NCBI GenBank assembly: GCA_020055645.1
Contig: CM034546.1
Location: 33,294,001-33,358,000, forward strand
DNA from: Tomocerus qinae
Lineage: Eukaryota > Arthropoda > Collembola > Entomobryomorpha > Tomoceridae
Reading direction: 5' to 3'
DNA length: 64,000 nucleotides
In this document: positions 2,686 to 50,983 of the stretch, piece by piece
How the letters are laid out: every line of letters begins with the position of its first letter
How positions within the stretch are numbered: the first letter of the stretch is position 1
Notes under the pieces: generated by a model
What the model was told of the DNA's origin: nothing
Databases searched by the model: none
Seen by the model: the letters and a program-made list of their open reading frames with translations, nothing else
Program-made: the position numbers and the translations under genes

Positions 2686-3343
2686 TTATATTGTTATTAC
2701 GTGTCTCTTGGCGTAGACTGGGAAAGTCCCCACGCTGTGCACAGTTGGGCCAGAATTGGCTACTTGGGCATTAAATCCATTAATACCATCAGCAGTATAA
2801 GTAACAGTTCTTATGTTACCAGTAGGTTCAACGAGAGAATATTGACCATTGACTATTCCTCCCACTCTTGTTTCTGTTTGGGACTTTTTGTCTCCAGTAA
2901 ATGGATCATTTACAGTCAGCGATGTAAAAGAAGCTATCAAAAAGTGGCCAGTACAAAATTAAACGAGTGCAGTAACCAGAAGGCAGGGATGTGAGGGCAA
3001 TTGGCGTAGTAATAGAACCCTTTCGAGGTGGTTAGATAAAAAATGCCCCTCTCAGTATATAAAAAATAAAACTTACTACAAAATTTTGAAATCAAGTACT
3101 TTGCAGTAAAAAAATATGCTGATTTCGAAAAAAGAGGTCGTTTTCAGAAAAAATCGAAATTGTGGGTGTGGCTACCAAACCCGTCTAGTCAATTTGATGG
3201 CATTAGGCCCATAGGTACCAATTTTAAATTTCAAAAACGTTAATGTCGTAATAATTAATCATTGATCCAAATCATGAGAAAAAGGGGAGGGGCAACCACG
3301 CCCATTTGGTGAACATAGTTGTATTTTACTACCAATTAGGATT

Positions 3344-4450
3344 TTGAAGTTTCAAAACATGCTGATTTCGAATAAATTAGTCATTTTTACCAAATCTGAG
3401 AAGTGGGTGGGGCGATTCCACCCATTTTCTAATATCTATGCAAAGCAGCTGTCAAATTCTATTTTGAGGTTTTGGAACATGCTGATTTCGAATAAATTAG
3501 TCATTTTTACCAAATCTGAGAAGTGGGTGGGGCCGGACTACCTATTTTCAAATATCTACACAATAAGATTTACAAATTTTATTTTAAGGTTTTCAAACAT
3601 GCTGATTTCGAATAAATTAGTCATTTAAACGAAATTCAAAAAGTGGGTGGGGCCAACATACCTTTTTCTAATATCTATACAATTAAGCTGTCAAATTCTG
3701 TTTTGAGGTTTTTAAACATGTTGATTTCGAACAAATTAGTCATTTTTACCAAATCTAAGAAATGGGTGGGGCCAGCCTACTCATTTTCTAATATCTCTGC
3801 AAATAAGCTGTCAAATTCTATTTTGAGGTTTTGGAACATGCTGATTTCGAATATATTAGTCATTTTTACCAAATCTGAGAAAATGGGTGGGGCCAGCCTA
3901 CCTATTTTCTAATATCTATACAATTAGATTTACAAATTTTATTTTAAGGTCTTCTAACATGGAGATTTCGAAAAAATTAGTCATTTAAACGAAATTCGAT
4001 AAGTGGGTGGGGCCAACATATCTATTTCCTAATATCTATACAATTAAGCTGTCAAATTCTGCTTGAGGTTTTGAAACATGCTGATTTCGAATAAATTAGT
4101 CATTTACCAAATCTGAGAAGTGGGTGGGGCCAGCGGCCAGCCTACCCATTTTCGAATATCTATGCAAATAAGCTGTCAAATTCTATTTTGAGGTTTTCAA
4201 GCATGCTGATTTCGAATAAAGTAGTCATTTACCAAATCTGAGAAGTGGGTGGGGCCAGCCTACCTATTTTCTAATATCTATACAATTAGAATTACAAATT
4301 TTATTTTAAGGTCTTCAAACATAGCGATTACGAATAAATTAGTCATTTTAACGAAATTCGAAAAGTGGGTGGGGCCAGCCTACTAATCTTCTATTATCCA
4401 TACAATTAGATTTACAAATTTTATTTTAAGGTGTTCAAACATACTGAAAA
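3344..4450. repeat. tandem ~120-bp repeats, left arm of foldback element
   Basis: About nine units with starts near 3362, 3482, 3602, 3721, 3841, 3961, 4081, 4204 and 4322. Two subtypes alternate, differing in the spacer after GTGGGTGGGGC. The four units furthest inside have no full partner in the other arm, suggesting gain or loss by unequal exchange. Confidence 0.85.
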
Positions 4451-4689
4451 ATAGATGGTTTGATTGTTGGAATAGAAAACAAAAGACCCACTACTCACAC
4501 GCCGTTCATTAAAAATAGATTAGATACCCAAATGTTTCATCGTTCATAACCCATACAAAATCTACGGAGTATGACAACTTTAAGAAGAATTTAATGTGCT
4601 TTAAACGCACATTCAAAAATTAAATTTTAGGAATGGAGTGATTGTACAGATATTAGAAAATGTATGGAGTTGCCCCACCCAATTTTCGA

Positions 4690-5342
4690 CTTTCATTAAA
4701 ATGACTAATTTATCCATTTTTCAGTATGTTTGAACACCTTAAAATAAAATTTGTAAATCTAATTGTATAGATATTAGAAAATAGGTAGGCTGGCCCCACC
4801 CATTTTCTCAGATTTGGTAAAAATGACTAATATATTCGAAATCAGCATGTTCCAAAACCTCAAAATAGAATTTGACAGCTTATTTGCAGAGATATTAGAA
4901 AATGAGTAGGCTGGCCCCACCCATTTCTTAGATTTGGTAAAAATGACTAATTTGTTCGAAATCAACATGTTTAAAAACCTCAAAACAGAATTTGACAGCT
5001 TAATTGTATAGATATTAGAAAAAGGTATGTTGGCCCCACCCACTTTTTGAATTTCGTTTAAATGACTAATTTATTCGAAATCAGCATGTTTGAAAACCTT
5101 AAAATAAAATTTGTAAATCTTATTGTGTAGATATTTGAAAATAGGTAGTCCGGCCCCACCCACTTCTCAGATTTGGTAAAAATGACTAATTTATTCGAAA
5201 TCAGCATGTTCCAAAACCTCAAAATAGAATTTGACAGCTGATTTGCATAGATATTAGAAAATGGGTGGAATCGCCCCACCCACTTCTCAGATTTGGTAAA
5301 AATGACTAATTTATTCGAAATCAGCATGTTTTGAAACTTCAA
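4690..5342. repeat. tandem ~120-bp repeats, right arm of foldback element
   Basis: About five units in the opposite orientation to the left array. The outer units pair base for base with 3344-3930. The innermost segment (4690-4756) instead resembles the end of the left array near 4395-4450. Confidence 0.85.
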
Positions 5343-6647
5343 AATCCTAATTGGTAGTAAAATACAACTATGTTCACCAAATGGGCGTGGCTGCCCCTCC
5401 CCTTTTTCTCATGATTTGGATCAATGATTAATTATTACGACATTAACGTTTTTGAAATTTAAAATTGGTACCTATGGGCCTAATGCCATCAAATTGACTA
5501 GACGGGTTTGGTAGCCACACCCACAATTTCGATTTTTTCTGAAAACGACCTCTTTTTTCGAAATCAGCATATTTTTTTACTGCAAAGTACTTGATTTCAA
5601 AATTTTGTAGTAAGTTTTATTTTTTATATACTGAGAGGGGCATTTTTTATCTAACCACCTCGAAAGGGTTCTATTACTACGCCAATTGCCCTCACATCCC
5701 TGCCTTCTGGTTACTGCACTCGTTTAATTTCGTACTGGCCACTTTTTGATAGCTTCTTTTACATCGCTGTTTACAGTGTAACCGAAATTAGTTACTGGGA
5801 CACCTAAGTAGAAATCATTCATAATATAATTTAATGCTTAACGAACAATAATCAAAATGAAAATTTTTATTAAACTTTATTATACTCAATTTAATATACT
5901 TAAATAGTAATATTATTTAATGAACTGCGTAAAATACATAAAATACTAAACAATGCTTAAATTCTTGAAATAATTGAAATTGTTTTTAATTTCTCGAATT
6001 TAAAATAAATTTGAGATTGTGAATGCATAAATTTGTTTCGCTTGTAAGGTAGATAGTGAAATTTATTTATTAAAATTAGAAATAATCAGTTGACATTGAA
6101 AATTGTAATTTTTGCAAAATTATTTAAATTATATTCTTAAAATTGCGAACAAAAATCATTGAAATTTAAAATAATTTGTTGAGAGAAAATTGAATAATGT
6201 TTACAAAAATTGTAAATTACCTTTGGTAAGGACAGTAGGGGCGTAAGCGACGATTGGTGCCTTGTAGACAATAGGAGCCTTGTAGACAACGGGAGCACGG
6301 TAAGTAATAATGGGTGTTTTGTATAGAGCTGGGTAGTAAGTTCTGTAGGTAGGAGGGAGAGTTCTGTACCAAGGAGATTCGTAAGTTTTGTAGAAGACAT
6401 TTCTTGGTGGAGGTGGTCCAAGTCCTAAGTAGATAGATTTAACTAAAGACAATCTTGGTAATCTTGGCAATCTCAATCGTGGTAGTCTAAGTCCAAGTCC
6501 AAATTCAAATCCAAATCCTCCTGAAAGGCCACCAGCAGCGGCACATCCGAGGATGGCAGCAAATATTATAAGCTAAATAAAATAAATAAATTATTAAATG
6601 CACAAAATATTAAAAATTTAAATAATTATTTAATTTACCTTATTCAT

Positions 6648-17957: not shown

Positions 17958-19976
17958 CACTTCCACATCCAGGCCTAAAAACTTCCGCGGACTACCAAGT
18001 GTGGTACAATTGTACCACGCAGCAGTATCCAAGTGTGGTACAATTGTACCGCACAGGGTTTCGTGTTTTTGTACTGGTCGCTAAACCAATGCTTAAGGTC
18101 CTACTCTTGCTATCATGGCAATATCCAAGTGTGGTACAATTGTACCACATAGCAAAACCCAATGTGGTACAATTGTACCACACTGGGATACATACAAACG
18201 TTCAGCGTGTAGTCGACGATAACAATTAATTTAGGTTTCCTTCGGTTAATTGTCGACAATGACAAATTACATTCTAACGGGTTATCATCGATGATTACAA
18301 TTTAATATGCAGTCTGCCGGCTTATAGTCGATGCTTACAGATTATTTTCCATTCTTTCGTCTAATAGTTTATTATTATATTTTAATATACATTATGTCGG
18401 CTTATAGTCGATAATTATAATGTAATATATATTCTGTTGGCTTATAGTCGATGCTTACAGAATTATTTAAATTCCGTCTGTTTATATTCAGTGATTACAA
18501 TTTTATACGCATTCCGTCAGCTTATAGTCGATGATTACATATATATATATGTTCTGTCGGATTATTGTCGATGATTAAATATTAATATAAATTCTGTCGG
18601 ATTATTGTCGATGATTACATATTAATATACATTCTGTCGGATTATAGTCGATGCTTACAGATTAATTTGCATTCTTTGGGTTTATGGCCGATGCTTACAT
18701 ATTAATTTACATTCCATCGGCATATAGTCAGTGTTAACAGTTTAATATGCATTCCGTCGGCTTATAGTCGATGCTTACAGATTAGTTTGCATTCTTTCGG
18801 CTAATAGTCGATGCTTACAGATTAATTTACATTCCATCGTCATATAGTCGGTGTTAACAGTTTAATATGCATTCCGTCGGCTTATAGTCGATGCTTACAG
18901 TTTAGTTTGCATTCTTTCGGCTAATAGTCGATGCTTACAGATTAATTTACATTCCATCGGTTTTTAGTCGGTGGTAACAGTTTAATATGTATTCCATCGG
19001 CTAATGGTCGATGCTTACAGATTAATTTACATTCCATCGGTTGTTAGTCGGTGATAACAGTTTAATATGCATTCCGTCGGCTTATAGTCGATGCTTGCAG
19101 ATTAGTTTGTATTCTTTGGGCTAATAGTGGATGCTTACAGATTAATTTATGTTCCTTCGGCTTAGTCGTTGATTACAATTTAATATACATTCTGTCGGCT
19201 TATAGTCGATGATTACTAAAATTTATACATTCCTTTGGCTTATAGTCAATGCCTACAGATTAATTTGAATTCTTTCGGTTAATAGTCGGTCATTACAATT
19301 TAATACACATTCTGTCGGCTTATAGTTGATGATTACAATATAATATACTATCTGTCGTCATATTGTCGATGTTTACAGATTAATTTGCATTCCTTCCGCT
19401 AATAGTCGATGCTTAGAGAATAATTTACATTCCGTTGGCTCATAGTCGATGCTTACAGATTAATTTGCATTTTGTCGGCTAATAGTCGATGCTTAAAGAT
19501 TATTTTACATTACGTCGGCTTATTGTCGGTCATTGCAATTTAATATGTATTTCGTCGACTAATAGTCGATGGTATAAATTAATTTGAATGCTGTCGTCTT
19601 ATAGTCGACTATAGAAAATTAATTTTCTTACTAACATTGCATTAATTGTATTTATTTATTAATTATTTACCATTTATTCTAGTCTACATGGCAGTATCCA
19701 AGTGTGGTACAATTGTACCACCCCAGATAAGAAACCTTCTTTGTGGTACATTTGTACCACATTGGATATTGCCATGTTAGCGATGACTTCGCCTTAGTTT
19801 TTCGGTCATAAAAAATTGAAAAAATCTTCAAATTTACCTCAAAATATTTTTAAAAATTGTAAAACAATATTCCTGACAGGTACCTGGAAGCTGGATGTAA
19901 TTCAGTTGAAAACAACGGAGATAAGGGCAAATAAAGGCGTTGTGGTACAATTGTACCACACTTGGATGTGGAAGTG
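17958..19976. mobile_element. TTAA-flanked element carrying a 60-bp satellite
   Basis: Termini are CACTTCCACATCCA and the inverse TGGATGTGGAAGTG, immediately flanked by TTAA (17954-17957 and 19977-19980). TTAA duplication with short inverted repeats is characteristic of piggyBac-like and Kolobok-like elements. Seven copies of a perfect or near-perfect palindrome, GTGGTACAATTGTACCAC, sit near the ends (18001, 18034, 18131, 18164 on the left; 19703, 19743, 19942 on the right). The middle is a 60-bp satellite. There is no transposase ORF, so it is non-autonomous. Confidence 0.8.
18240..19630. repeat. 60-bp satellite array (about 23 units)
   Basis: The unit contains GGCTTATAGTCGATGCTTACAG followed by TTAATTTGCATTC. 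Adjacent units often alternate, giving a 120-bp higher-order period from about 18700 to 19100. Divergence between units is moderate. There is no coding potential. Confidence 0.85.
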
Positions 19977-36721: not shown

Positions 36722-37370
36722 GTAAGACATTTTTGATGACTTCTGATATTATGATATTAATTAATTTGGTTATGTAACCATTGAATTTTGTTATATATAT
36801 CCCAGTAAAACCAAATTTTTGTGTTATTATAAAATCGAATTTATTTCGACATTTATTATTAATATATACCAATAATTAATATATCCCCTGTCCCCCCTGG
36901 CTGCGGCACTGACTCCAGCCTCCAGCTTTGAGGGTGGGTTTCGAAAGACTCCAAACGCATTAAGCACTGCCTCCTTAATGCGATAACAAACAAAAATAAT
37001 TCTCAGCCTTTTAGAAAGAACAAACTTGGAGTTATACTTCCGCACTAGTGAAGATTTTTGCCAAAGTCAATGTTTTTTGCCAACTCCAGTCTAAACTAAT
37101 CCGAAACATGGTATAAGTATAATCTAAGTGGACATACTAAAACAACAACCACAATTAACTTATATATTAATTAGCGAATGAATTGGGCCTTTCCATGAAC
37201 GGCCATGTAATACCATACGCTTCAAACGCCAGCTGCCAATTCCGATCATGGTAGTTAACTACAATGCATATGTAAAAGTTAGTAAATCGAAATGAAAGTT
37301 TGTATTCAATTCCTTATATTTAATTCAATTTAACAAATAGTACTCTGGTCCAAAAATAAGTTTCATTTTA
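36722..37370. other. intergenic flank of the giant palindrome
   Basis: AT-rich. A GC-richer stretch at about 36890-36970 (CCCCCTGGCTGCGGCACTG) looks like the edge of a dispersed element. No gene seen. Confidence 0.35.
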
Positions 37371-37383
37371 AGTAGTAAGGGGA

Positions 37384-37780
37384 CCAGTAAGCCACAACCA
37401 TACGCCATCTTGGATTCTAAAAAAGGCTCGAACAGCCACAACCATAGCCTACGGCTCTCATCAAGCACATACACTAACCTTACTCTGGGATAGTAGTCCT
37501 CACCCTCACTATGCTTGGATAGCCACAACCATAGCCTACGGCACTCCTACACTATCCTAATTCTTATGCTTGGATAGTCACGACCATACCCCGAGGCGGT
37601 AACCGAAATACACTATGCTTGAATAGCCACAACCATAGCCTGCGGCAGTGCTTATAGTACATACACTAGCGTAACTCTTACGCTCGAACACTCACAACCA
37701 TAGTACAATGCATTCATGGCAGTACAGGTACTAACCTTTCTATTACACTTGGATAATAGCAACCATACCCAATGGCAATT
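37384..37780. repeat. subterminal repeats, left arm
   Basis: About seven or eight spaced copies of a motif like CTTGGATAGCCACAACCATAG followed by CCTACGGC, between the terminus and 37780. Subterminal arrays like this often bind the transposase. The mirrored array is at about 49793-50189. Confidence 0.7.
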
Positions 37781-39921
37781 TAATATCATTCATAATTTAA
37801 TGCTTATATATAATTAACGTCATACAATATAGGTATATCATATTCATATATGCCTATCTATAAGGGTGATTAATATCTAATTACTATAAAATATAATAAA
37901 TGACAATGCAAATTAGATCTCTTTGAATACTCAATGATAATGATGAAGGTCATTGTGTGTAGACACCTCCTGATAATAAAATTAATTTTATAATTTTAAT
38001 TAAATAGAAACAAAGTGTACACACATACAGATACGATAGAGTAAACCAAATTATATTAATTAATTATTATTGATTGTCGATTATTGGTTATTAAGTGTTA
38101 AGACGAAAAATTTATTTAAAATTTTGCAAGGATTTTGCTAAGAATAAAGTACTGTTCAGGTATAAAAATTTTGTTTGATTAAAGAGGGTCTGGATTTTAA
38201 TTAGTCGGTGGTCAGGCGTTAATTGAAGTCCTTAGCATGCAATAAATTATATTAAATGTTCAAATATTTTACAAACCGCAACAGCAACCGCAACAACCGC
38301 ACTATCAACCGCAGAAATGTCATCAAAAACTGTATCAAATAATGTATCAACAGTGTTATTAACAGAATAAACACTTGTTATTTTATTGAGGTTATGTGCA
38401 TTTAGCAAAATAATTTTAAAAGTACATTCAAAAACAAAGTTCTATATACCTGAGACTACTTGTGTTTATGTAATGTACACTCCAATGCTGGGATAGTCAG
38501 AATAGTAGCCTGTGACAATTTATTAATACATCATTGAATGTTTAAATTTATTTTCAAAGTTTGTGTCCGATTATTGGTATATCGCATACTTATCTATAAA
38601 TGTTGAATGTCAGTAACGATAACATATAATGAAATGATAAGCTAAACTATGTTCCTGTGAGTACTTGTATTTGATGAACATAATGGTGTGTAGGACAAAA
38701 ACATTGTAAATATATGTGTATGACTTTACATGTGAGGATAAGTGTATGTAATGAAGGGACGTGGAAAGGGGTTGAACACAATGGTATGTAGTAGAAGGTA
38801 GAAGAAGTAGATACATTACAACATTGTACAGACATACACGTCGTTTCAGTACTTTAAAATATCCAGGCAATGGAAATTATTTCCCAAATTGGAGTACGTT
38901 TGGAACAAAAGAGTTGCTATTACCTTTAGTCATAAAATCCTTTCTCAGAAAGGGATTTACGTAAAAGATTTTTTCTTATAGGTTACTTTCAACTTACGCA
39001 CCTTATATTTTAATTCTACAAAGGTCTCTACTAAGAATATATTTGTTATAAATCATATATGATAGTAATTCATTCTCTGAGGTAGTAATACAAGTGCAGG
39101 TCAGAAATTAAACTTGTATGATTGTACAGAGTCGGTTCTTAGTAAGTACAAGTCTATTCTTAGCTAATTATAAAGATATGTGTCAGTCATAAGCTTAATT
39201 CTTGTACTTAAATAGGAATTATCATACCGCAATGGGAAAATTTTTTCCCAATATGTTGCAAATTTACTACTGAATACTCGGAAATTTGTAAAACATGGAT
39301 AAACAGACAGACATGGATAAACACAGACAATTACATAATCTAGTATACAAAAATACTACACCAACATCACTAACCGCACAACTAACCGCAGTAATAGCGT
39401 TAGTAAACGTAGTCAAGACCGCGAAAACCCCAACATAAATATATGTATAATATTTCAACAGGTTCATTGTCGAATAGTACTGATTCTGAGACTATAGTTT
39501 GTTCTTTAACACGTAGTAAAACTTACAATCAATAAGGTTTATACGGAAGGGGGTTTAAGACTTGTATACAGCATCAATACAATACAAAATGTTATTTTCA
39601 ATACAATAATAAGGATAATCCTCTCCTGAAAAGCTACTTACATATCGTAGGTACATTCTAACTTATATTATTTAAAAAATTGCGTCAGGCGTTCAGCAGA
39701 CGCAAGGTAACCTTTTTCCGAAAATACATGATACATTTACATGTATGTTCCTACTTATATAGTTTATTTATATTATCGAATGAAGTGGGGTACTAAGATG
39801 TGTAAAACATTTCACTTAAATAGGGGTACTTTGTAAAAATCATCACATTACAACTAGGGGAGTTATCATTAACATCTAGCTTCAAAAGTCTTCTGGTATA
39901 GCTGCCATAATAATTCTCAAT

Positions 39922-41301
39922 ATGGAAAATTGTCCAATCTGTAGTGTATATTTAACTAGTAATTTTGAGCAACATTTTAAGGAAACTCATCAGTGCCCAA
40001 CATGTTTGAAGTTTAAAGAACCTGGTCGCCTATCTGGTAAGTGTTTAAACAATATTTCATATATTTTACAAATTTATATCAAATTTGAAAACGTGAAAAT
40101 TATAGGATGTATAACCTAATAAAATTCCCCGGATTATATATTTTCAGGATGTCCTAATAACGATTGTACCAAATGTTTCGAAACAGAAAATGATATGAAA
40201 GTCTGTGTCTACGATGTCAGAGACAGCGGGGATACCATAGCGCTAAATCAGGAAAAAGATGACGATAACAATGATAACGAAGAGATCCAAGAATTTAAAC
40301 AGGAAGTAAATGAAGGTAGTGACAGACAAGTTCAGGAAATCGAGATGTTCGACCAGGAAGAAGATCACGCTGGCCCAGAAAGCCAAGAAGGAGATGACAC
40401 TGACCGAGAAAACCAGGAAATTGATGAGATCAACCGGGAAGAAATAGGCGATGACGATGAAAATCTTCAGGATGAGGACGATGATTGGGTTAGTGTTTAT
40501 AATGGAAATCATGATCAGCAGGTAGATTCAGAGGAAGAATTTGAAGACGATGGATTTGACGAACAATTTGTAAGTGCATACGAGTATGATTTAGAGGACG
40601 GAGATTGGGGAACAGAATTTTCCACAACATTTACAGAATATATTGACAGTCTAATTTGTGAACCACCGCCACAGCTAGGAAGTTTAGTTATTTCTGTTGT
40701 AACTAATAGCCTTTATACTGAAGATTTCAATCTTAAAATGACAAGATATAATATTCATGGTGAGAAACATGAGGAATTGGAGTTTCCTTGTAACCCAAAT
40801 GCAATTGTTAACATTATTACAGCGATTGACAAATGTATTAATTATGTAACAGTGCCAGATTTTTACCCGTTTATTGATATTAAAATGTTGGACATATTTT
40901 CAATTTATCCCGATTATTACGACTTACGTCTTCGATATATTAGACGTAATCGAACTAATGAATTGCTTGGGTTTAGATTATATGTACCAGAATTAAAAGA
41001 TGAGAAACCAAGTCTATATATTCTTTCTAACGAATTTGCAGCAGTTATTCGAAAGTTAGATTTATTTCGCGAATATCTTGAGAAAATTTATTCCACATCA
41101 TTTCGCAGATATTCTACGGATCGAAATCTCGAAAAATGTCCTCACGATTTTGATGGAGCAAATTTTTCTATATCATCCTTGTGTCCAGAGTATTGTAATT
41201 GTAGACTGACTTTAAAAAGAGTAATTTTGCCTGCACAAACATTACCGACTACAATAATGATAAAATTATCCAACGCTAAGGAAGACAATTGTATTGTTTA
41301 A
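39922..41301 (+). CDS. zinc-finger/acidic protein, left-arm copy (2 exons)
   Basis: Exon 1 (39922-40036) encodes a C2H2-like finger, CPICSVYLTSNFEQHFKETH, and CPTCLKFKEPGRLSG, ending in phase 1 at CTG|GTAAGT. Exon 2 (40148-41301) continues CPNNDCTKCFETENDMKVC, completing a second Cys cluster. It then has ~110 residues extremely rich in Asp/Glu/Gln, and a globular-looking C-terminal half (TRYNIHGEKHEELEFPCN, YPDYYDLRLRYIRRNRTNE) with several Cys near the end (CPEYCNCRL). The total is about 422 residues. Probably an element-encoded nuclear or DNA-binding protein (inference from the fingers and acidic tract). Family unrecognised. Confidence 0.65.
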
Positions 41302-41894
41302 AATGCATACAAATTATACAAAATGTTTAAAATTAATCCAATAGAATGTATCAAATAAAAGCATTTCAGTTGTTAAATGCGGTTATTACTGAGTTTATTT
41401 GTACTAAGCCAGAATTCTGCTTTTAAGCAGCTGATATATAAACATTTAGTATGTTGATATTGAACTAAATACTTTTAAAGTTTATCATCAATTTTGTTAA
41501 TTAATTTCACTAGTTATAAGCCTAACCTTACCTATGAACATAAGTTTAATTTAAAAATATAAAACACTCAAATGAATAGTCAAATGGAAGTTAGTGTGAT
41601 CGACTGTCCTTTTTTGTGTTGAATATAATATAATATGACGAATTGCAATTAAATATAGTCTGGTATTGAATAAAAATATAAGTTTTAAAATAATTGTTTA
41701 GTTAATGAAAATTTTTTACTAATCATATTTTATTTTAAAATATAAATAAATTACTTTTATTTAAAAAATTATTCTAAAAACAAGAACAGTTAGAACTGCC
41801 AAAGACATGGTCCGTCTAAAACCATATATTTTAACAGTATAAGTCTAATTAACAAAACTAAAGCAAAATAATTGTCGGCTTAGCATTTTGAAAA

Positions 41895-42393
41895 TTGTAT
41901 TATAAGTACCTCAAGTACTTTTTTCACATCTACTCAAATCGAACCAACAAGAGGACATTTCATTCCAATACAAGTGACAGCTTGCTAAACCGACAATTAT
42001 TATCAATACATGGTAAAAAAGTTGTAGATATAATATTACTTACTTGTTGGAAACAGAATGTTTGTGATGACTGTCAAAAGTACGAAAACGATTTCTTCGA
42101 TGTCTAATTATAGGCCAAATGATGTAAGTTTAGGAAAATATCACAATATAATAAACAAAAAACGATTAGGGTACAATTGTCCAATACTGACTGAATTTGC
42201 TTGTACTAAGCCAAAGTGGTATTGTTGTAGTAGCAGAAAAACAGCTGATATTTATAATAACACAGGAGACTATAGTCCAAAGAAAATATTGAAAAGAGTT
42301 AGTATAAGTGCGGTTGAAAAGTATATAGTTTTTGAATATTTGGTAGATGCAATGTGTCCCAGAAAATTCTTTGAATGCTCAAATATTGATTGA
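41895..42393 (+). pseudogene. small Cys-rich ORF pair, left arm
   Basis: Two overlapping frames: 41895-42107 (ends LTCWKQNVCDDCQKYENDF) and 42058-42393 (contains CPILTEFACTKPKWYCCSSRK and ends FECSNID). They probably represent one frame-shifted gene. Part of it (around 42185-42265) resembles the region just after the zinc-finger gene (41383-41443: both contain TTTG..TGTACTAAGCCA and AGCAGCTGATAT-like motifs), indicating an internal duplication. Function unknown. Confidence 0.35.
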
Positions 42394-43039
42394 TTGAGAG
42401 TGGAAAAAAGGCTACAAATGACCCAGATGTAAAAAGATATTTTCCCAATAAGATTGTTACTATAGTATATGGTCACTAAAACATTAAATTGTATGAAAAA
42501 ACGTGTATAATGTAATATTGATGTAAATACTCGTAAAAACGATGCCCGGCAATTTCCGCAGATTTTGTTGTTTCGTTTTACTAGTTATGTAACCTAACGT
42601 AACCTAATTTAGTCTACTTTAAAAGATAAAAATGAAAATAAATAGACAATATAATTTGACCCAACGTAACTTAATGCACTTAAATTGTATTTTGAATATC
42701 TATTAAAGTGATGAATGAAAATAAAATTAACATTTGTGCACATAAATCTGTTTTGTTATGTATGTATTTATTTTAAACTAACAAAAATTACATTTATTTA
42801 CAATACAAAACATTCCAAAATACTAAAACAGTTTTCAAAATTACACAAATAATCAAATCGCTAAGAAGAAATTAAGTGCGTTTTTCAAACTATCAACATT
42901 ATTAGACATATAAATGTATACTTAAAGCCTAGCCTCAGTGTTGTCTCAGTCATATATAGCCTAAATAACGTAATAAATCACTCATATCATGCATTAACTT
43001 TGTAAAATCAAAATAAAAGTCACACTGCCATATATATAC

Positions 43040-43205
43040 ACACGTACCGCAGTATCAACCGCAGTAACAGCACTATCAACCGCAGTAACCGCACTATCAA
43101 CCGCAGTAACCGCACTATCAACCGCAGTAACCGCACTATCAGCCGCAGTAACCGCACTATCAACCGCAGTAACTGCAGTATCAATCGCACTATTAACCGC
43201 AACTT
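43040..43205. repeat. 21-bp CCGCA tandem repeat, left of the palindrome centre
   Basis: Units of CCGCAGTAACCGCACTATCAA type, about seven copies. Mirrored at 43793-43958. Related short CCGCA-rich runs occur at about 38275-38312 and 39355-39425 (mirrors about 49261-49298 and 48150-48220). Confidence 0.8.
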
Positions 43206-43474
43206 TAAATTCATTTTTTCAAACTCTTAAAACATAACAATCATCTACATAAAACCTAACCTACTAATTGAACATTCTTTATGGATACTTCCAATCATTT
43301 CAGCAAACTTAATGATTAATTACGTAAGGCTCGTAATTTTTAAGTCAAATCTTAACGTAATTCCTTCAACTTTACTCAAGAAATATCACACATACACAAC
43401 CTATAATTGGCACAAAATACTATCTTGTATCAAAATCTACAAGATTTTAATTTTGAATCAGAGAAACAAGAGAG

Positions 43475-43523
43475 ATAACAGAAATTGTCGGAGAAGTTTC
43501 TCCGAAAATTACTGTCTCACAAG
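43475..43523. other. centre of the giant palindrome
   Basis: This is the only unpaired stretch between the arms, 49 bp long. It contains its own short hairpin, CGGAGAAGTTTCTCCG. The last pairs of the arms are GAGAAACAAGAG / CTCTTGTTTCTC. Confidence 0.8.
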
Positions 43524-43792
43524 CTCTCTTGTTTCTCTGATTCAAAATTAAAATCTTGTAGATTTTGATACAAGATAGTATTTTGTGCCAATTATAGGTT
43601 GTGTATGTGTGATATTTCTTGAGTAAAGTTGAAGGAATTACGTTAAGATTTGACTTAAAAATTACGAGCCTTACGTAATTAATCATTAAGTTTGCTGAAA
43701 TGATTGGAAGTATCCATAAAGAATGTTCAATTAGTAGGTTAGGTTTTATGTAGATGATTGTTATGTTTTAAGAGTTTGAAAAAATGAATTTA

Positions 43793-43958
43793 AAGTTGCG
43801 GTTAATAGTGCGATTGATACTGCAGTTACTGCGGTTGATAGTGCGGTTACTGCGGCTGATAGTGCGGTTACTGCGGTTGATAGTGCGGTTACTGCGGTTG
43901 ATAGTGCGGTTACTGCGGTTGATAGTGCTGTTACTGCGGTTGATACTGCGGTACGTGT
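43793..43958. repeat. 21-bp CCGCA tandem repeat, right of the centre
   Basis: Inverse copy of the array at 43040-43205, with the same number of units. Confidence 0.8.
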
Positions 43959-44604
43959 GTATATATATGGCAGTGTGACTTTTATTTTGATTTCACAAAG
44001 TTAATGCATGATATGAGTGATTTATTACGTTATTTAGGCTATATATGACTGAGACAACACTGAGGCTAGGCTTTAAGTATAAATTTATATGTCTAATAAT
44101 GTTGATAGTTTGAAAAACGCACTTAATTTCTTCTTAGCGATTTGATTATTTGTGTAATTTTGAAAACTGTTTTAGTATTTTGGAATGTTTTGTATTGTAA
44201 ATAAATGTAATTTTTGTTAGTTTAAAATAAATACATACATAACAAAACAGATTTATGTGCACAAATGTTAATTTTATTTTCATTCATCACTTTAATAGAT
44301 ATTCAAAATACAATTTAAGTGCATTAAGTTACGTTGGGTCAAATTATATTGTCTATTTATTTTCATTTTTATCTTTTAAAGTAGACTAAATTAGGTTACG
44401 TTAGGTTACATAACTAGTAAAACGAAACAACAAAATCTGCGGAAATTGCCGGGCATCGTTTTTACGAGTATTTACATCAATATTACATTATACACGTTTT
44501 TTCATACAATTTAATGTTTTAGTGACCATATACTATAGTAACAATCTTATTGGGAAAATATCTTTTTACATCTGGGTCATTTGTAGCCTTTTTTCCACTC
44601 TCAA

Positions 44605-44940
44605 TCAATCAATATTTGAGCATTCAAAGAATTTTCTGGGACACATTGCATCTACCAAATATTCAAAAACTATATACTTTTCAACCGCACTTATACTAAC
44701 TCTTTTCAATATTTTCTTTGGACTATAGTCTCCTGTGTTATTATAAATATCAGCTGTTTTTCTGCTACTACAACAATACCACTTTGGCTTAGTACAAGCA
44801 AATTCAGTCAGTATTGGACAATTGTACCCTAATCGTTTTTTGTTTATTATATTGTGATATTTTCCTAAACTTACATCATTTGGCCTATAATTAGACATCG
44901 AAGAAATCGTTTTCGTACTTTTGACAGTCATCACAAACAT
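44605..44940 (-). pseudogene. small Cys-rich ORF, right-arm copy
   Basis: The 111-residue product is identical to the left-arm ORF 42058-42393. The upstream part of the locus in this arm is interrupted by the insert at 45012. Confidence 0.35.
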
Positions 44941-45011
44941 TCTGTTTCCAACAAGTAAGTAATATTATATCTACAACTTTTTTACCATGTATTGATAATA
45001 ATTGTCGGTTT

Positions 45012-45576
45012 GTGTGTGTGTGTTAGGGGGAGAGCACAGCTACTACTATTGATTAGTATAGCTATGCTACCGCTCAAGCCGCGAGGGCTTACTTGCAGTG
45101 GCTCCCGGAACAACTTTACTAAGTGTACAGACTTACACGAAGAGACTTAGTGAAGAGTACTGAACCATGAGACGGAACGACTCAACACTGTCCCGCAACT
45201 CGATCTGGTGGGCAGTCAGAGAGGGACCGGAACATGTAAGCCAACCGCCAGTGACCACAGACAAATCACTTACAGCAGTCTACTTCAATCCACCTTATCA
45301 CCTCATGTGCATCCCATTGTCCAGACTTGTGCTAGGTAGAACTCGTAGCACGTATACAGACCAACAGAACAATCCATACACTACAGACAGGGCATTGATA
45401 GATAATCATATTGTCACTAAGATAGGCAAATCAATGCTAATAACGAATATACGGCAAAGACAGCTTTTCCCAGCTCCAGACTACTACCTTATAGACCTGA
45501 GGCGCTCCAGAGATTCGAGCTCCAGACATCAGCCTGAGAAGCGGCTGTTTAGACCACTAGACAGACCTGTACGCCC
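45012..45576 (+). mobile_element. 565-bp insertion present only in the right arm
   Basis: The left arm has a single AATTGTCGGTTT at the matching site. The right arm has it on both sides (45000-45011 and 45577-45588), so the intervening DNA was inserted with a 12-bp duplication. The insert starts with a GT run, then TTAGGGGGAGAGCAC. It carries an open frame (45167 onward, beginning MRRNDSTLSRNSIWW, with YFNPPYHLMCIPLSR and PAPDYYLIDLRRSRD) that runs into the flanking arm. The duplication length suggests retroposition. The element type is unrecognised. Confidence 0.65.
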
Positions 45577-46273
45577 AATTGTCGGTTTAGCAAGCTGTCA
45601 CTTGTATTGGAATGAAATGTCCTCTTGTTGGTTCGATTTGAGTAGATGTGAAAAAAGTACTTGAGGTACTTATAATACAATTTTCAAAATGCTAAGCCGA
45701 CAATTATTTTGCTTTAGTTTTGTTAATTAGACTTATACTGTTAAAATATATGGTTTTAGACGGACCATGTCTTTGGCAGTTCTAACTGTTCTTGTTTTTA
45801 GAATAATTTTTTAAATAAAAGTAATTTATTTATATTTTAAAATAAAATATGATTAGTAAAAAATTTTCATTAACTAAACAATTATTTTAAAACTTATATT
45901 TTTATTCAATACCAGACTATATTTAATTGCAATTCGTCATATTATATTATATTCAACACAAAAAAGGACAGTCGATCACACTAACTTCCATTTGACTATT
46001 CATTTGAGTGTTTTATATTTTTAAATTAAACTTATGTTCATAGGTAAGGTTAGGCTTATAACTAGTGAAATTAATTAACAAAATTGATGATAAACTTTAA
46101 AAGTATTTAGTTCAATATCAACATACTAAATGTTTATATATCAGCTGCTTAAAAGCAGAATTCTGGCTTAGTACAAATAAACTCAGTAATAACCGCATTT
46201 AACAACTGAAATGCTTTTATTTGATACATTCTATTGGATTAATTTTAAACATTTTGTATAATTTGTATGCATT

Positions 46274-47653
46274 TTAAACAATACAATTGTCTTCCTTAGC
46301 GTTGGATAATTTTATCATTTTTGTAGTCGGTAATGTTTGTGCAGGCAGCATTACTCTTTTTAAAGTCAGTCTACAATTACAATACTCTGGACACAAGGAT
46401 GATATAGAAACCTTTGCTCCATCAGAGTCGTGAGGACATTTTTCGAGATTTCGATCCGCAGAATATCTGCGAAATGATGTGGAATAAATTTTCTCAAGAT
46501 ATTCGCGAAATAAATCTAACTTTCGAATAACTGCTGCAAATTCGTTAGAAAGAATATATAGACTTGGTTTCTCATCTTTTAATTCTGGTACATATAATCT
46601 AAACCCAAGCAATTCATTAGTTCGATTACGTCTAATATATCGAAGACGTAAGTCGTAATAATCGGGATAAATTGAAAATATGTCCAACATTTTAATATCA
46701 ATAAACGGGTAAAAATCTGGCACTGTTACGTTATTAATACATTTGTCAATCGCTGTAATAATGCTAACAATTGCATTTGGGTTACAAGGAAACTCCAATT
46801 CTTCATGTTTCTCACCATGAATATTATATCTTGTCATTTTAAGATTGAAATCTTCAGTATAAAGGCTATTAGTTACAACAGAAATAACTAAACTTCCTAG
46901 CTGTGGCGGTGGTTCACAAATTAGACTGTCAATATATTCTGTAAATGTTGTGGAAAATTCTGTTCCCCAATCTCCGTCCTCTAAATCATACTCGTATGCA
47001 CTTACAAATTGTTCGTCAAATCCATCGTCTTCAAATTCTTCCTCTGAATCTACCTGCTGATCATGATTTCCATTATAAACACTAACCCAATCATCGTCCT
47101 CATCCTGAAGATTTTCATCGTCATCGCCTATTTCTTCCCGGTTGATCTCATCAATTTCCTGGTTTTCTCGGTCAGTGTCATCTCCTTCTTGGCTTTCTGG
47201 GCCAGCGTGATCTTCTTCCTGGTCGAACATCTCGATTTCCTGAACTTGTCTGTCACTACCTTCATTTACTTCCTGTTTAAATTCTTGGATCTCTTCGTTA
47301 TCATTGTTATCGTCATCTTTTTCCTGATTTAGCGCTATGGTATCCCCGCTGTCTCTGACATCGTAGACACAGACTTTCATATCATTTTCTGTTTCGAAAC
47401 ATTTGGTACAATCGTTATTAGGACATCCTGAAAATATATAATCCGGGGAATTTTATTAGGTTATACATCCTATAATTTTCACGTTTTCAAATTTGATATA
47501 AATTTGTAAAATATATGAAATATTGTTTAAACACTTACCAGATAGGCGACCAGGTTCTTTAAACTTCAAACATGTTGGGCACTGATGAGTTTCCTTAAAA
47601 TGTTGCTCAAAATTACTAGTTAAATATACACTACAGATTGGACAATTTTCCAT
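46274..47653 (-). CDS. zinc-finger/acidic protein, right-arm copy (2 exons)
   Basis: Mirror of the left-arm gene, with exons 47539-47653 and 46274-47427 and the same splice sites. In the translated parts compared, the first ~250 residues are identical. The C-terminal half differs at eight residues: Asn/Ser and Tyr/Asn near the middle, Thr/Ala, Phe/Ser, Asn/Lys, Phe/Val, Ile/Met and Ile/Lys near the end. Both copies are intact. Confidence 0.65.
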
Positions 47654-49792
47654 ATTGAGAATTATTATGGCAGCTATACCAGAAGACTTTTGAAGCTAGA
47701 TGTTAATGATAACTCCCCTAGTTGTAATGTGATGATTTTTACAAAGTACCCCTATTTAAGTGAAATGTTTTACACATCTTAGTACCCCACTTCATTCGAT
47801 AATATAAATAAACTATATAAGTAGGAACATACATGTAAATGTATCATGTATTTTCGGAAAAAGGTTACCTTGCGTCTGCTGAACGCCTGACGCAATTTTT
47901 TAAATAATATAAGTTAGAATGTACCTACGATATGTAAGTAGCTTTTCAGGAGAGGATTATCCTTATTATTGTATTGAAAATAACATTTTGTATTGTATTG
48001 ATGCTGTATACAAGTCTTAAACCCCCTTCCGTATAAACCTTATTGATTGTAAGTTTTACTACGTGTTAAAGAACAAACTATAGTCTCAGAATCAGTACTA
48101 TTCGACAATGAACCTGTTGAAATATTATACATATATTTATGTTGGGGTTTTCGCGGTCTTGACTACGTTTACTAACGCTATTACTGCGGTTAGTTGTGCG
48201 GTTAGTGATGTTGGTCTAGTATTTTTGTATACTAGATTATGTAATTGTCTGTGTTTATCCATGTCTGTCTGTTTATCCATGTTTTACAAATTTCCGAGTA
48301 TTCAGTAGTAAATTTGCAACATATTGGGAAAAAATTTTCCCATTGCGGTATGATAATTCCTATTTAAGTACAAGAATTAAGCTTATGACTGACACATATC
48401 TTTATAATTAGCTAAGAATAGACTTGTACTTACTAAGAACCGACTCTGTACAATCATACAAGTTTAATTTCTGACCTGCACTTGTATTACTACCTCAGAG
48501 AATGAATTACTATCATATATGATTTATAACAAATATATTCTTAGTAGAGACCTTTGTAGAATTAAAATATAAGGTGCGTAAGTTGAAAGTAACCTATAAG
48601 AAAAATCTTTACGTAAATCCCTTTCTGAGAAAGGATTTTATGACTAAAGGTAATAGCAACTCTTTTGTTCCAAACGTACTCCAATTTGGGAAATAATTTC
48701 CATTGCCTGGATATTTTAAAGTACTGAAACGACGTGTATGTCTGTACAATGTTGTAATGTATCTACTTCTTCTACCTTCTACTACATACCATTGTGTTCA
48801 ACCCCTTTCCACGTCCCTTCATTACATACACTTATCCTCACATGTAAAGTCATACACATATATTTACAATGTTTTTGTCCTACACACCATTATGTTCATC
48901 AAATACAAGTACTCACAGGAACATAGTTTAGCTTATCATTTCATTATATGTTATCGTTACTGACATTCAACATTTATAGATAAGTATGCGATATACCAAT
49001 AATCGGACACAAACTTTGAAAATAAATTTAAACATTCAATGATGTATTAATAAATTGTCACAGGCTACTATTCTGACTATCCCAGCATTGGAGTGTACAT
49101 TACATAAACACAAGTAGTCTCAGGTATATAGAACTTTGTTTTTGAATGTACTTTTAAAATTATTTTGCTAAATGCACATAACCTCAATAAAATAACAAGT
49201 GTTTATTCTGTTAATAACACTGTTGATACATTATTTGATACAGTTTTTGATGACATTTCTGCGGTTGATAGTGCGGTTGTTGCGGTTGCTGTTGCGGTTT
49301 GTAAAATATTTGAACATTTAATATAATTTATTGCATGCTAAGGACTTCAATTAACGCCTGACCACCGACTAATTAAAATCCAGACCCTCTTTAATCAAAC
49401 AAAATTTTTATACCTGAACAGTACTTTATTCTTAGCAAAATCCTTGCAAAATTTTAAATAAATTTTTCGTCTTAACACTTAATAACCAATAATCGACAAT
49501 CAATAATAATTAATTAATATAATTTGGTTTACTCTATCGTATCTGTATGTGTGTACACTTTGTTTCTATTTAATTAAAATTATAAAATTAATTTTATTAT
49601 CAGGAGGTGTCTACACACAATGACCTTCATCATTATCATTGAGTATTCAAAGAGATCTAATTTGCATTGTCATTTATTATATTTTATAGTAATTAGATAT
49701 TAATCACCCTTATAGATAGGCATATATGAATATGATATACCTATATTGTATGACGTTAATTATATATAAGCATTAAATTATGAATGATATTA

Positions 49793-50189
49793 AATTGCCA
49801 TTGGGTATGGTTGCTATTATCCAAGTGTAATAGAAAGGTTAGTACCTGTACTGCCATGAATGCATTGTACTATGGTTGTGAGTGTTCGAGCGTAAGAGTT
49901 ACGCTAGTGTATGTACTATAAGCACTGCCGCAGGCTATGGTTGTGGCTATTCAAGCATAGTGTATTTCGGTTACCGCCTCGGGGTATGGTCGTGACTATC
50001 CAAGCATAAGAATTAGGATAGTGTAGGAGTGCCGTAGGCTATGGTTGTGGCTATCCAAGCATAGTGAGGGTGAGGACTACTATCCCAGAGTAAGGTTAGT
50101 GTATGTGCTTGATGAGAGCCGTAGGCTATGGTTGTGGCTGTTCGAGCCTTTTTTAGAATCCAAGATGGCGTATGGTTGTGGCTTACTGG
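49793..50189. repeat. subterminal repeats, right arm
   Basis: Inverse of the array at 37384-37780, with motifs such as GGCTATGGTTGTGGCTATCC. Confidence 0.7.
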
Positions 50190-50202
50190 TCCCCTTACTA
50201 CT

Positions 50203-50983
50203 ATTTTAAATAATGACAACGAATAGCTTTTACAAATGGTTGTTTAAAACTGCCAAAAAACTATATGCTTTGATTGGTTTAAGATGTTTGATTTAGGTAT
50301 GATCGTTTTATATTATGAAAATATGTCACACCGAAATAAATGCCATTCGTTTCAAGTATTTCTCGTTTCAAGAAAGTAACTTTGAAGTATGAAATAAATG
50401 CCATATGCATATCTAACAGCATGCCAAACTCCATTTGTTAATGTCCACCTTAATAACCACCTTAATAAGTCTTCGATTTTCACATAAGAATATCACAAAG
50501 TACATCAAAGCAATACTAAAACTAATTAGAAATATCGAGAAAATATTCGAATTCAAAAAAGTGACTGGCCGCCGCGGAAGTTCTCTTGCCCAACACGTTT
50601 TACATTTGAAACTGAAGTGAAAAAAATGAAAAACATGAAATTGTCCCTTTTGGAATTTTCTAACAATTAATTAAATATTCCAGTGTGACTCAGGGCAAAT
50701 AACCTCCGCCTTAAAATTGGGGTCATCATTGGAACTCTGTAAATTGAGATAAATGTGTAAACAGGTATCGATAAAAATGAATTATCCTCAGTTCCATAAT
50801 ACAAAGATTTCCTTGGTTCAACTCCCCCACTCAGTGGATTCCAGTAGGAGCCATTCAGAAAGTCGATTCAGTCGGGAAGTTTGAAGAATTAGTGCAGAAT
50901 TATTGCACTCTGAAATCCATTTATGAGGACTTGTAGAAGGAAAATCGGGGGGAAGTTTCACAGTGTTCCAAAAACCTTATCAA
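50203..50983. other. spacer between the palindrome and the receptor pseudogene
   Basis: No intact gene. On the minus strand about 50790-50980, decayed sequence (FPPIFLLQVLINGFQ, broken by stops) may be the eroded 3' end of the receptor pseudogene. The ORF 50435-50620 is not supported. Confidence 0.4.

Follow-up and report, generated by a model that had tools for sequence, protein, structure and literature searches.

The window analysed here, 64,000 nucleotides from the springtail Tomocerus qinae, contains a 12.8-kb palindrome (positions 37371-50202; W hereafter) that belongs to a mobile family. Members of the family are symmetric, with Maverick ends, near-identical arms and a conserved centre, and have recombined with Mavericks. 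We conclude that the elements are probably self-complementary Maverick satellites, kept symmetric by foldback replication around a hairpin and integrated in trans. Such a life cycle would involve a folded self-complementary form, protein priming, copying around the hairpin by the DNA polymerase PolB, and an integrase supplied by other elements.

Results

An inverted repeat of 12,832 bp accounts for the whole of W. Three arm pairs were found, at 37371-38972/48601-50202, 38970-41998/45577-48605 and, innermost, 41987-43474/43524-45011, where the arms are separated by 49 bp. The left arm (37371-43469, forward strand) runs from the terminus AGTAGTAAGGGGACC up to the core of an imperfect central hairpin (43470-43528), which is common to other palindromic elements and includes the 49-bp spacer (43475-43523). 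The right arm (43529-50202, reverse strand) is its mirror. Both ends have the sequence AGTAGTAAGGGGACC, starting AGTAGTA, and are flanked by exact 6-bp copies of the target-site duplication ATTTTA (37365-37370 and 50203-50208). Note that an earlier annotation of the window (the original prediction) had described a near-perfect palindrome with matching ends, this duplication and this spacer; the inverted-repeat and terminus coordinates confirm each element of that description. The subterminal repeat arrays and two mirrored gene sets that it listed are also present. Briefly, six CACAACCATA-like units occupy 37393-37702 (forward strand) in the left arm, with the mirror in the right, 21-bp tandem arrays lie left (43046-43189, forward) and right (43809-43952, reverse) of the centre, and each arm carries a gene that we call gene X.

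The two arms of W are identical at 6,085 of 6,102 aligned sites (17 differences; 99.72%). Apart from these sites, there is a 2-bp indel and an insertion of 577 bp that only the right arm has. The later insertion lies at 45012-45576 (565 bp), flanked by the 12-bp repeats AATTGTCGGTTT, and a 166-residue open frame over it has no relative in Pfam, the PDB or the protein set. Twelve of the 17 differences are clustered within 480 bp (window 40773-41255). Since the right arm matches the state of other copies at most decidable sites, this looks like a local burst of changes in the left arm. The palindrome is not a product of chance. Furthermore, it is unlikely to derive from a fold-back read, because the arms have private substitutions and a private insertion, and because further pairs of termini on opposite strands, 8-17 kb apart, occur in the genome.

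The genome searched comprised 334 Mb in 115 contigs, and the first 401 bp of W have at least 67 matches in it, many arranged as plus/minus pairs. We fetched 13 loci besides W: 11 candidates (E2-E12), E13 and E14. E4 is asymmetric, and E12 (C1:138.45 Mb) was rejected as a bounded palindrome, its inverted ends being simple repeats. The 12 bounded palindromes are thus W, E2, E3, E5-E11, E13 and E14. Exact 6-bp duplications flank ten of them (W, E2, E5-E10, E13 and E14), and the duplication of E11 matches at 5 of 6 bp. The motif AGTAGTA begins both ends of all 12, and of the four asymmetric elements described below, except for one end of E7 (AGTAATA). The family spans ~8-17 kb, with the ten exactly duplicated palindromes measuring 7.9 to 13.9 kb and E3 16.6 kb. 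Unpaired central stretches, where one arm is shortened, are found in E3 (~2.1 kb) and E11 (~3.7 kb). Across the palindromes, identity between arms, in BLAST pieces, is mostly 98-100%; the lowest values are for E6 (92-94%), E10 (92%) and E2 (96%), the E10 and E2 pieces including the centre. Searching for termini with 6-bp duplications, as the original prediction had proposed, therefore recovers many copies. Its "single giant foldback transposon" is a mobile unit of foldback shape, but not a one-off.

Some members have further features. Both arms of E3 (L011/L012, C14:234847-251501) contain DUF659 frames. In E10, a 612-residue frame with a zinc finger and a reverse-transcriptase domain lies on the reverse strand (L025:3124-4959). 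Short plus/minus pairs of the inner terminal repeat, ~1.4 and 3 kb in extent, at L051 (C1:54213001-54214600) and L052 (C1:81703501-81706900) are possibly miniature relatives. Query P0001 had no match in IMG/VR and none among PDB sequences. Two IMG/VR contigs from the alignment had no inverted repeats of at least 40 bp in the 15,423 of 17,398 bp and 13,792 of 15,128 bp examined. Hence, no palindromic relative was seen outside this genome.

Ten of the 12 palindromes are centred on an imperfect hairpin (W, E2, E5-E10, E13 at L031 and E14 at L035). At the centre of E11, 61 of the 101 bp of the hairpin region are present; in E3 the hairpin was not found. The common form consists of three stems, of 7, 8 and 6 bp, and the loop AAACTT; the bulge TGTGAGACA opposite TT separates the first stem from the second, and one T-C mismatch the second from the third. 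Searched exactly, a 29-bp half of the hairpin occurs 16 times in the genome (7 on the plus strand and 9 on the minus strand), compared to none for a reversed control, and none of the 16 is inside the asymmetric elements described below. At 14 of these loci, BLAST identifies inverted arms (221 to 3,052 bp) within 3 kb. The exceptions are L030 and L044, the latter with PolB on both strands farther out. Among six diverged elements (15 pairs), mean identity in the 40-bp bin of the hairpin core is 0.89, against 0.61-0.74 for other bins with at least 6 pairs. The W hairpin folds to -12.0 kcal/mol (300 mononucleotide shuffles: mean -3.5, lowest -9.3) and the common form to -17.4 kcal/mol (mean -4.1, lowest -11.3). 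By eye, the outer stems of W and E10 are unlike the common stem in sequence, with pairing kept. Repeats of 21 bp, similar to those of W, lie beside the hairpin in the copies looked at.

Two further readings of the hairpin loci were abandoned. Counting the 7 plus and 9 minus orientations as flip and flop forms was dropped since, with identical arms, orientation reflects only the direction of insertion. A copy at C1:12.55 Mb, which stops just past the loop, could have been a single arm integrated by its hairpin end, but no 6-bp duplication is seen in the flanks of this copy.

The original prediction had also suggested looking for an autonomous relative. Four bounded asymmetric elements have palindrome-type termini, PolB and integrase, and three of them have exact 6-bp duplications. 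E4 (C1:23252768-23267580; duplication TCGAAC) has a 172-bp terminal repeat, PolB and an rve integrase (PF00665, E=7e-6, below the Pfam cut-off). The others, each ~14.5 kb, are at C1:112500510-112515056 (duplication AATACT), C4:25596508-25611047 (CCTAGG) and C1:112767005-112781594 (the 112.77-Mb element; a duplication of 5 bp only). Next to PolB in the 112.77-Mb element is a 235-residue ATPase matching Pox_A32 above cut-off, and a similar frame was seen in a second asymmetric element. Pfam identified no capsid gene in E4, and the palindromes were not searched systematically for such genes. Hence, we call the asymmetric elements Mavericks on the basis of their ends, duplication, PolB, integrase and ATPase, with no capsid gene recognised.

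Integrases were sought with the C-terminal 113 residues of the E4 protein. All 128 candidates were scored, giving 124 matches. The eight best, E4 included, are 87-100% identical and sit in the four asymmetric elements, beside PolB at 60.19 and 39.94 Mb, at 115.52 Mb, and on C5. None of the 124 is inside the 12 bounded palindromes; the absence of integrase claimed for W thus extends to the family as far as tested. Three integrase fragments matched E4 alone among the loci compared. An rve integrase, as expected of a Maverick/Polinton, is therefore found in the asymmetric sisters but not in the palindromes. Judged by gene content, we take the palindromes to be a non-autonomous relative of Mavericks rather than an autonomous member. 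A second PolB family (52-54% identity; C93:12612, C9:14630, C1:13534104 and C1:94011702) is unpaired among the matches listed and near integrase copies. These loci are probably ordinary asymmetric Mavericks.

Regarding polymerase, said originally to be absent, the prediction was wrong. W has a PolB C-terminal remnant in its left arm (42037-42579, forward), 43% identical to residues 1248-1447 of the E9 protein (E=9e-31), and a mirrored copy in its right arm (44419-44961, reverse), corresponding to the last ~200 residues of Maverick PolB. The remnant alone is present in W, E2, E5, E6 and E8, and nothing in E10 matches PolB. Other palindromes have PolB in large part or in full, with sequence in both arms of E3, E7, E9, E13, E14 and E11 (right arm shortened). 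The left arm of E9 has a single open frame of 1,448 residues with a zinc finger, an EndoVII-like cluster, and exonuclease and polymerase motifs. These motifs are invariant in a seven-sequence alignment with relatives. Hence, the E9 frame has the makings of a Maverick PolB, and W on its own, with a remnant, falls short. A hairpin-centred copy at 39.71 Mb likewise has an open PolB of 1,446 residues, without stops; many other palindrome PolB arms are broken. In the protein set, the best relative of E9 PolB is an unnamed protein (43%); among named relatives, identity is 37 and 32% for springtail proteins and 35% for the PolB of a spider adintovirus. The ratio of nonsynonymous to synonymous substitution rates (dN/dS) is 0.16 (931 codons) and 0.077 (508 codons) for E9 against E7, and 0.085 (625 codons) for E9 against E3. 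These ratios indicate that PolB was under selection, not necessarily in palindromic form.

When a tree was built from the outer 900 bp, sister arms were recovered for 8 of the 10 palindromes represented by both ends. E14 (48.02 Mb) bears on how arms become alike. Its arms are mutually 99.9 and 100% identical over 4,697 and 444 bp, and one carries a private 0.37-kb insertion. Compared with the 112.77-Mb element in 200-bp windows, the left arm is 67-86% identical from 48,018,200 to 48,020,400. Beyond this point identity is 95-98.5%, then 99.5-100% to 48,023,200, and ~88% at the 3' end of PolB (164 bp). For the right arm, the PolB piece included in the tree matches the 112.77-Mb element at 99.9% identity. 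The exchange with a Maverick thus left like tracts in the two E14 arms, a pattern to be expected had one arm given rise to both. The PolB tree intermixes palindromic and asymmetric forms, with weak support at deep nodes. Counting the 60.19- and 39.94-Mb PolB copies as asymmetric, the approximately unbiased (AU) test rejects monophyly of palindromic PolB (p=2e-81; 6e-63 with E3 left free). Note that, because of recombination, any single PolB tree is only an approximation.

In W, the polymerase appears to have been largely replaced by another gene. As the original prediction had it, the arms carry a gene predicted from sequence to be spliced, gene X, with a plausible GT-AG intron of 111 bp (40037-40147). 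In the left arm, exon 1 (39922-40036, forward) starts with the ATG at 39922 and encodes a zinc-finger-like N terminus (Pfam zf-Di19, below cut-off); exon 2 (40148-41301, forward) is open to 41301, and the whole product is 422 residues. The right arm has mirrored exons at 47539-47653 and 46274-47427 (reverse), the latter also open. A 392-residue frame (40123-41301) has no homologue at E <= 0.001 in the protein set. We could assign no function to gene X, having no homologue, a Pfam match below cut-off and a useless structure model (predicted local distance difference test score, pLDDT, 32.8). Parts of gene X are present in W, E2, E5, E6 and E8. Eight comparisons with W, some with stops, give dN/dS of 0.25 to 1.02, a weaker signal than for PolB.

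Elsewhere in the window, a 120-bp satellite forms two oppositely oriented arrays (3341-4447 and 4641-5345), which make up another inverted structure, and a diverged 40-bp tandem array of ~34 copies occupies 18267-19608.

Discussion

If the palindromes are foldback satellites of Mavericks, each arm would correspond to the half of a Maverick on the polymerase side, reading inwards from the AGTAGTA terminus. Because the arms meet head to head at the hairpin, a single strand can fold to a ~6.4-kb duplex with an open Maverick-type end and a closed hairpin end. Maverick PolB, which we take from its family to be protein-primed, would start at the open end and copy around the hairpin. In the folded form, mismatches between arms would be repaired, or one arm would be recopied, giving identical arms in every round. 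In the middle of the folded strand the hairpin would keep its mismatches, as is the case in poxviruses (PMC8956199). The linear product would then be inserted by a Maverick integrase acting in trans, creating the 6-bp duplication. Since W has no working PolB, it would need PolB in trans as well. More tentatively, and at somewhat less than even confidence, we suggest that the palindromes could be a second life form of Mavericks. This would be a linear replicon in the shape of a ~6.4-kb duplex with one hairpin-telomere end and one open end, copied around the hairpin by PolB. One arm would regenerate the other each cycle, arm divergence would date each insertion, and tracts would be exchanged with the asymmetric, integrase-bearing form.

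The original prediction ended with a non-autonomous palindromic derivative. The elements do seem non-autonomous, but the hairpin centre, the sister arm ends and the E14 tract go beyond what a derivative with long terminal inverted repeats would offer. One can nevertheless picture non-autonomous Mavericks in which the terminal inverted repeats are very long and the arms stay alike only through chromosomal gene conversion after insertion, the hairpin having no role. Conversion between nearby inverted copies is well known, as in Y-chromosome palindromes. It would fit the near identity of most arm pieces and could have carried the E14 tract to the second arm. However, the E6 arms have drifted apart, and W retains its 17 differences and its insertion. 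Hence, conversion is not strong in either element. Conversion also sits badly with a hairpin core more conserved between diverged copies than the adjoining arms, and we consider this explanation unlikely.

Alternatively, each palindrome could be a separate accident, a snap-back dimer in which a Maverick end was copied twice, with no lasting palindromic lineage. The interleaving of palindromic and asymmetric PolB would suit such a history, as would E3, which has no hairpin and pairs with the asymmetric E4. The E14 mosaic means that interleaving can be explained by recombination. Conversely, the same hairpin is at the centre of copies both with and without PolB, like 21-bp repeats accompany the hairpin, and five elements (W, E2, E5, E6 and E8) share one PolB remnant. 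The common hairpin, repeats and remnant need inheritance, making independent dimers very unlikely. Perfect palindromes are also a known artefact of long reads. That the assembly, or fold-back reads, created the family is extremely improbable given the private arm differences in W, the private insertion in one E14 arm, and exact 6-bp duplications at ten of the 12 bounded palindromes.

Several points weigh against foldback satellites. Foldback replication and transposition are inferred from integrated genome copies, and supply of integrase in trans is argued solely from its absence in cis and the shared ends. Neither E4 nor the portions read of the other asymmetric elements (left halves unread) showed the hairpin. 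The E10 core folds poorly (-7.7 kcal/mol). E3 lacks both hairpin and target duplication, its inverted ends run 9 bp into flanking DNA, and it may be a chromosomal inverted duplication. In the outer-900-bp tree the E3 arms are not joined, and the E3 ends are equally near E4 and each other (97.8%). The E6 arms are joined at a support of only 0.36, and identity of the left end is 95.2% to E5 and 94.2% to the E6 right end. The PolB tree places E13 left with the copy at 0.858 Mb and apart from E13 right, all within 0.5%. Finally, selection in Mavericks, with which PolB tracts are shared, may account for the low dN/dS.

Target duplications of 6 bp and ends starting AG are Maverick traits. The suspected Maverick/Polinton affinity is borne out by both, by PolB kinship and by the asymmetric sisters. 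Like Mavericks/Polintons and adintoviruses, the family has a zinc-finger PolB, with rve integrase and A32-type ATPase in the asymmetric sisters. Unlike them, the palindromes are symmetric over their whole length, have a central hairpin, have no integrase match in the 12 elements, and have, as far as searched, no recognised capsid gene. Very long inverted repeats with internal subrepeats recall the foldback transposons FB and Galileo, which have a P-element-type transposase and 7-9 bp duplications. In contrast, the elements here have 6-bp duplications, Maverick termini and PolB, and Pfam matches of the seven window frames scanned include no transposase. The Tetrahymena ribosomal DNA palindrome is likewise a head-to-head dimer, around a short non-palindromic spacer, but it is host-made and not transposable. 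In Ad12 SYREC, symmetric recombinants of adenovirus, a protein-primed genome reportedly has one of its ends duplicated as a palindrome. Those are defective laboratory genomes, whereas this is an inherited genomic family with its own centre. The imperfect hairpin, with its conserved mismatch and bulge, resembles poxvirus hairpin telomeres. Here, though, known from sequence alone, there is one hairpin, mid-element and integrated, with flip and flop indistinguishable since the arms are alike.

To our knowledge, Maverick replication is known only from models. By titles and abstract openings, we found no palindromic Mavericks among the literature matches listed, with subscription papers mostly outside. 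The string "palindrom" occurs 0 times in the main text of PMC6431247, PMC11071296 and PMC10328495. Adintovirus PolB is described with an OTU-like N-terminal domain (PMC11071296). Poxvirus replication yields linear concatemers, and refolding of their junctions produces mismatched hairpins (PMC8956199).

In this family the foldback stem makes up the entire element and the turnaround at its centre is conserved, which opens the foldback step to experiment. Palindromic elements of this kind may be taken for assembly errors in repeat libraries. If our interpretation is correct, it would connect the way Mavericks replicate with poxvirus and parvovirus hairpin telomeres. The palindromes would be satellites living off an endogenous virus-like element, each insertion with its own internal clock, and the regeneration of arms each cycle would resemble that of long terminal repeats in retroelements.

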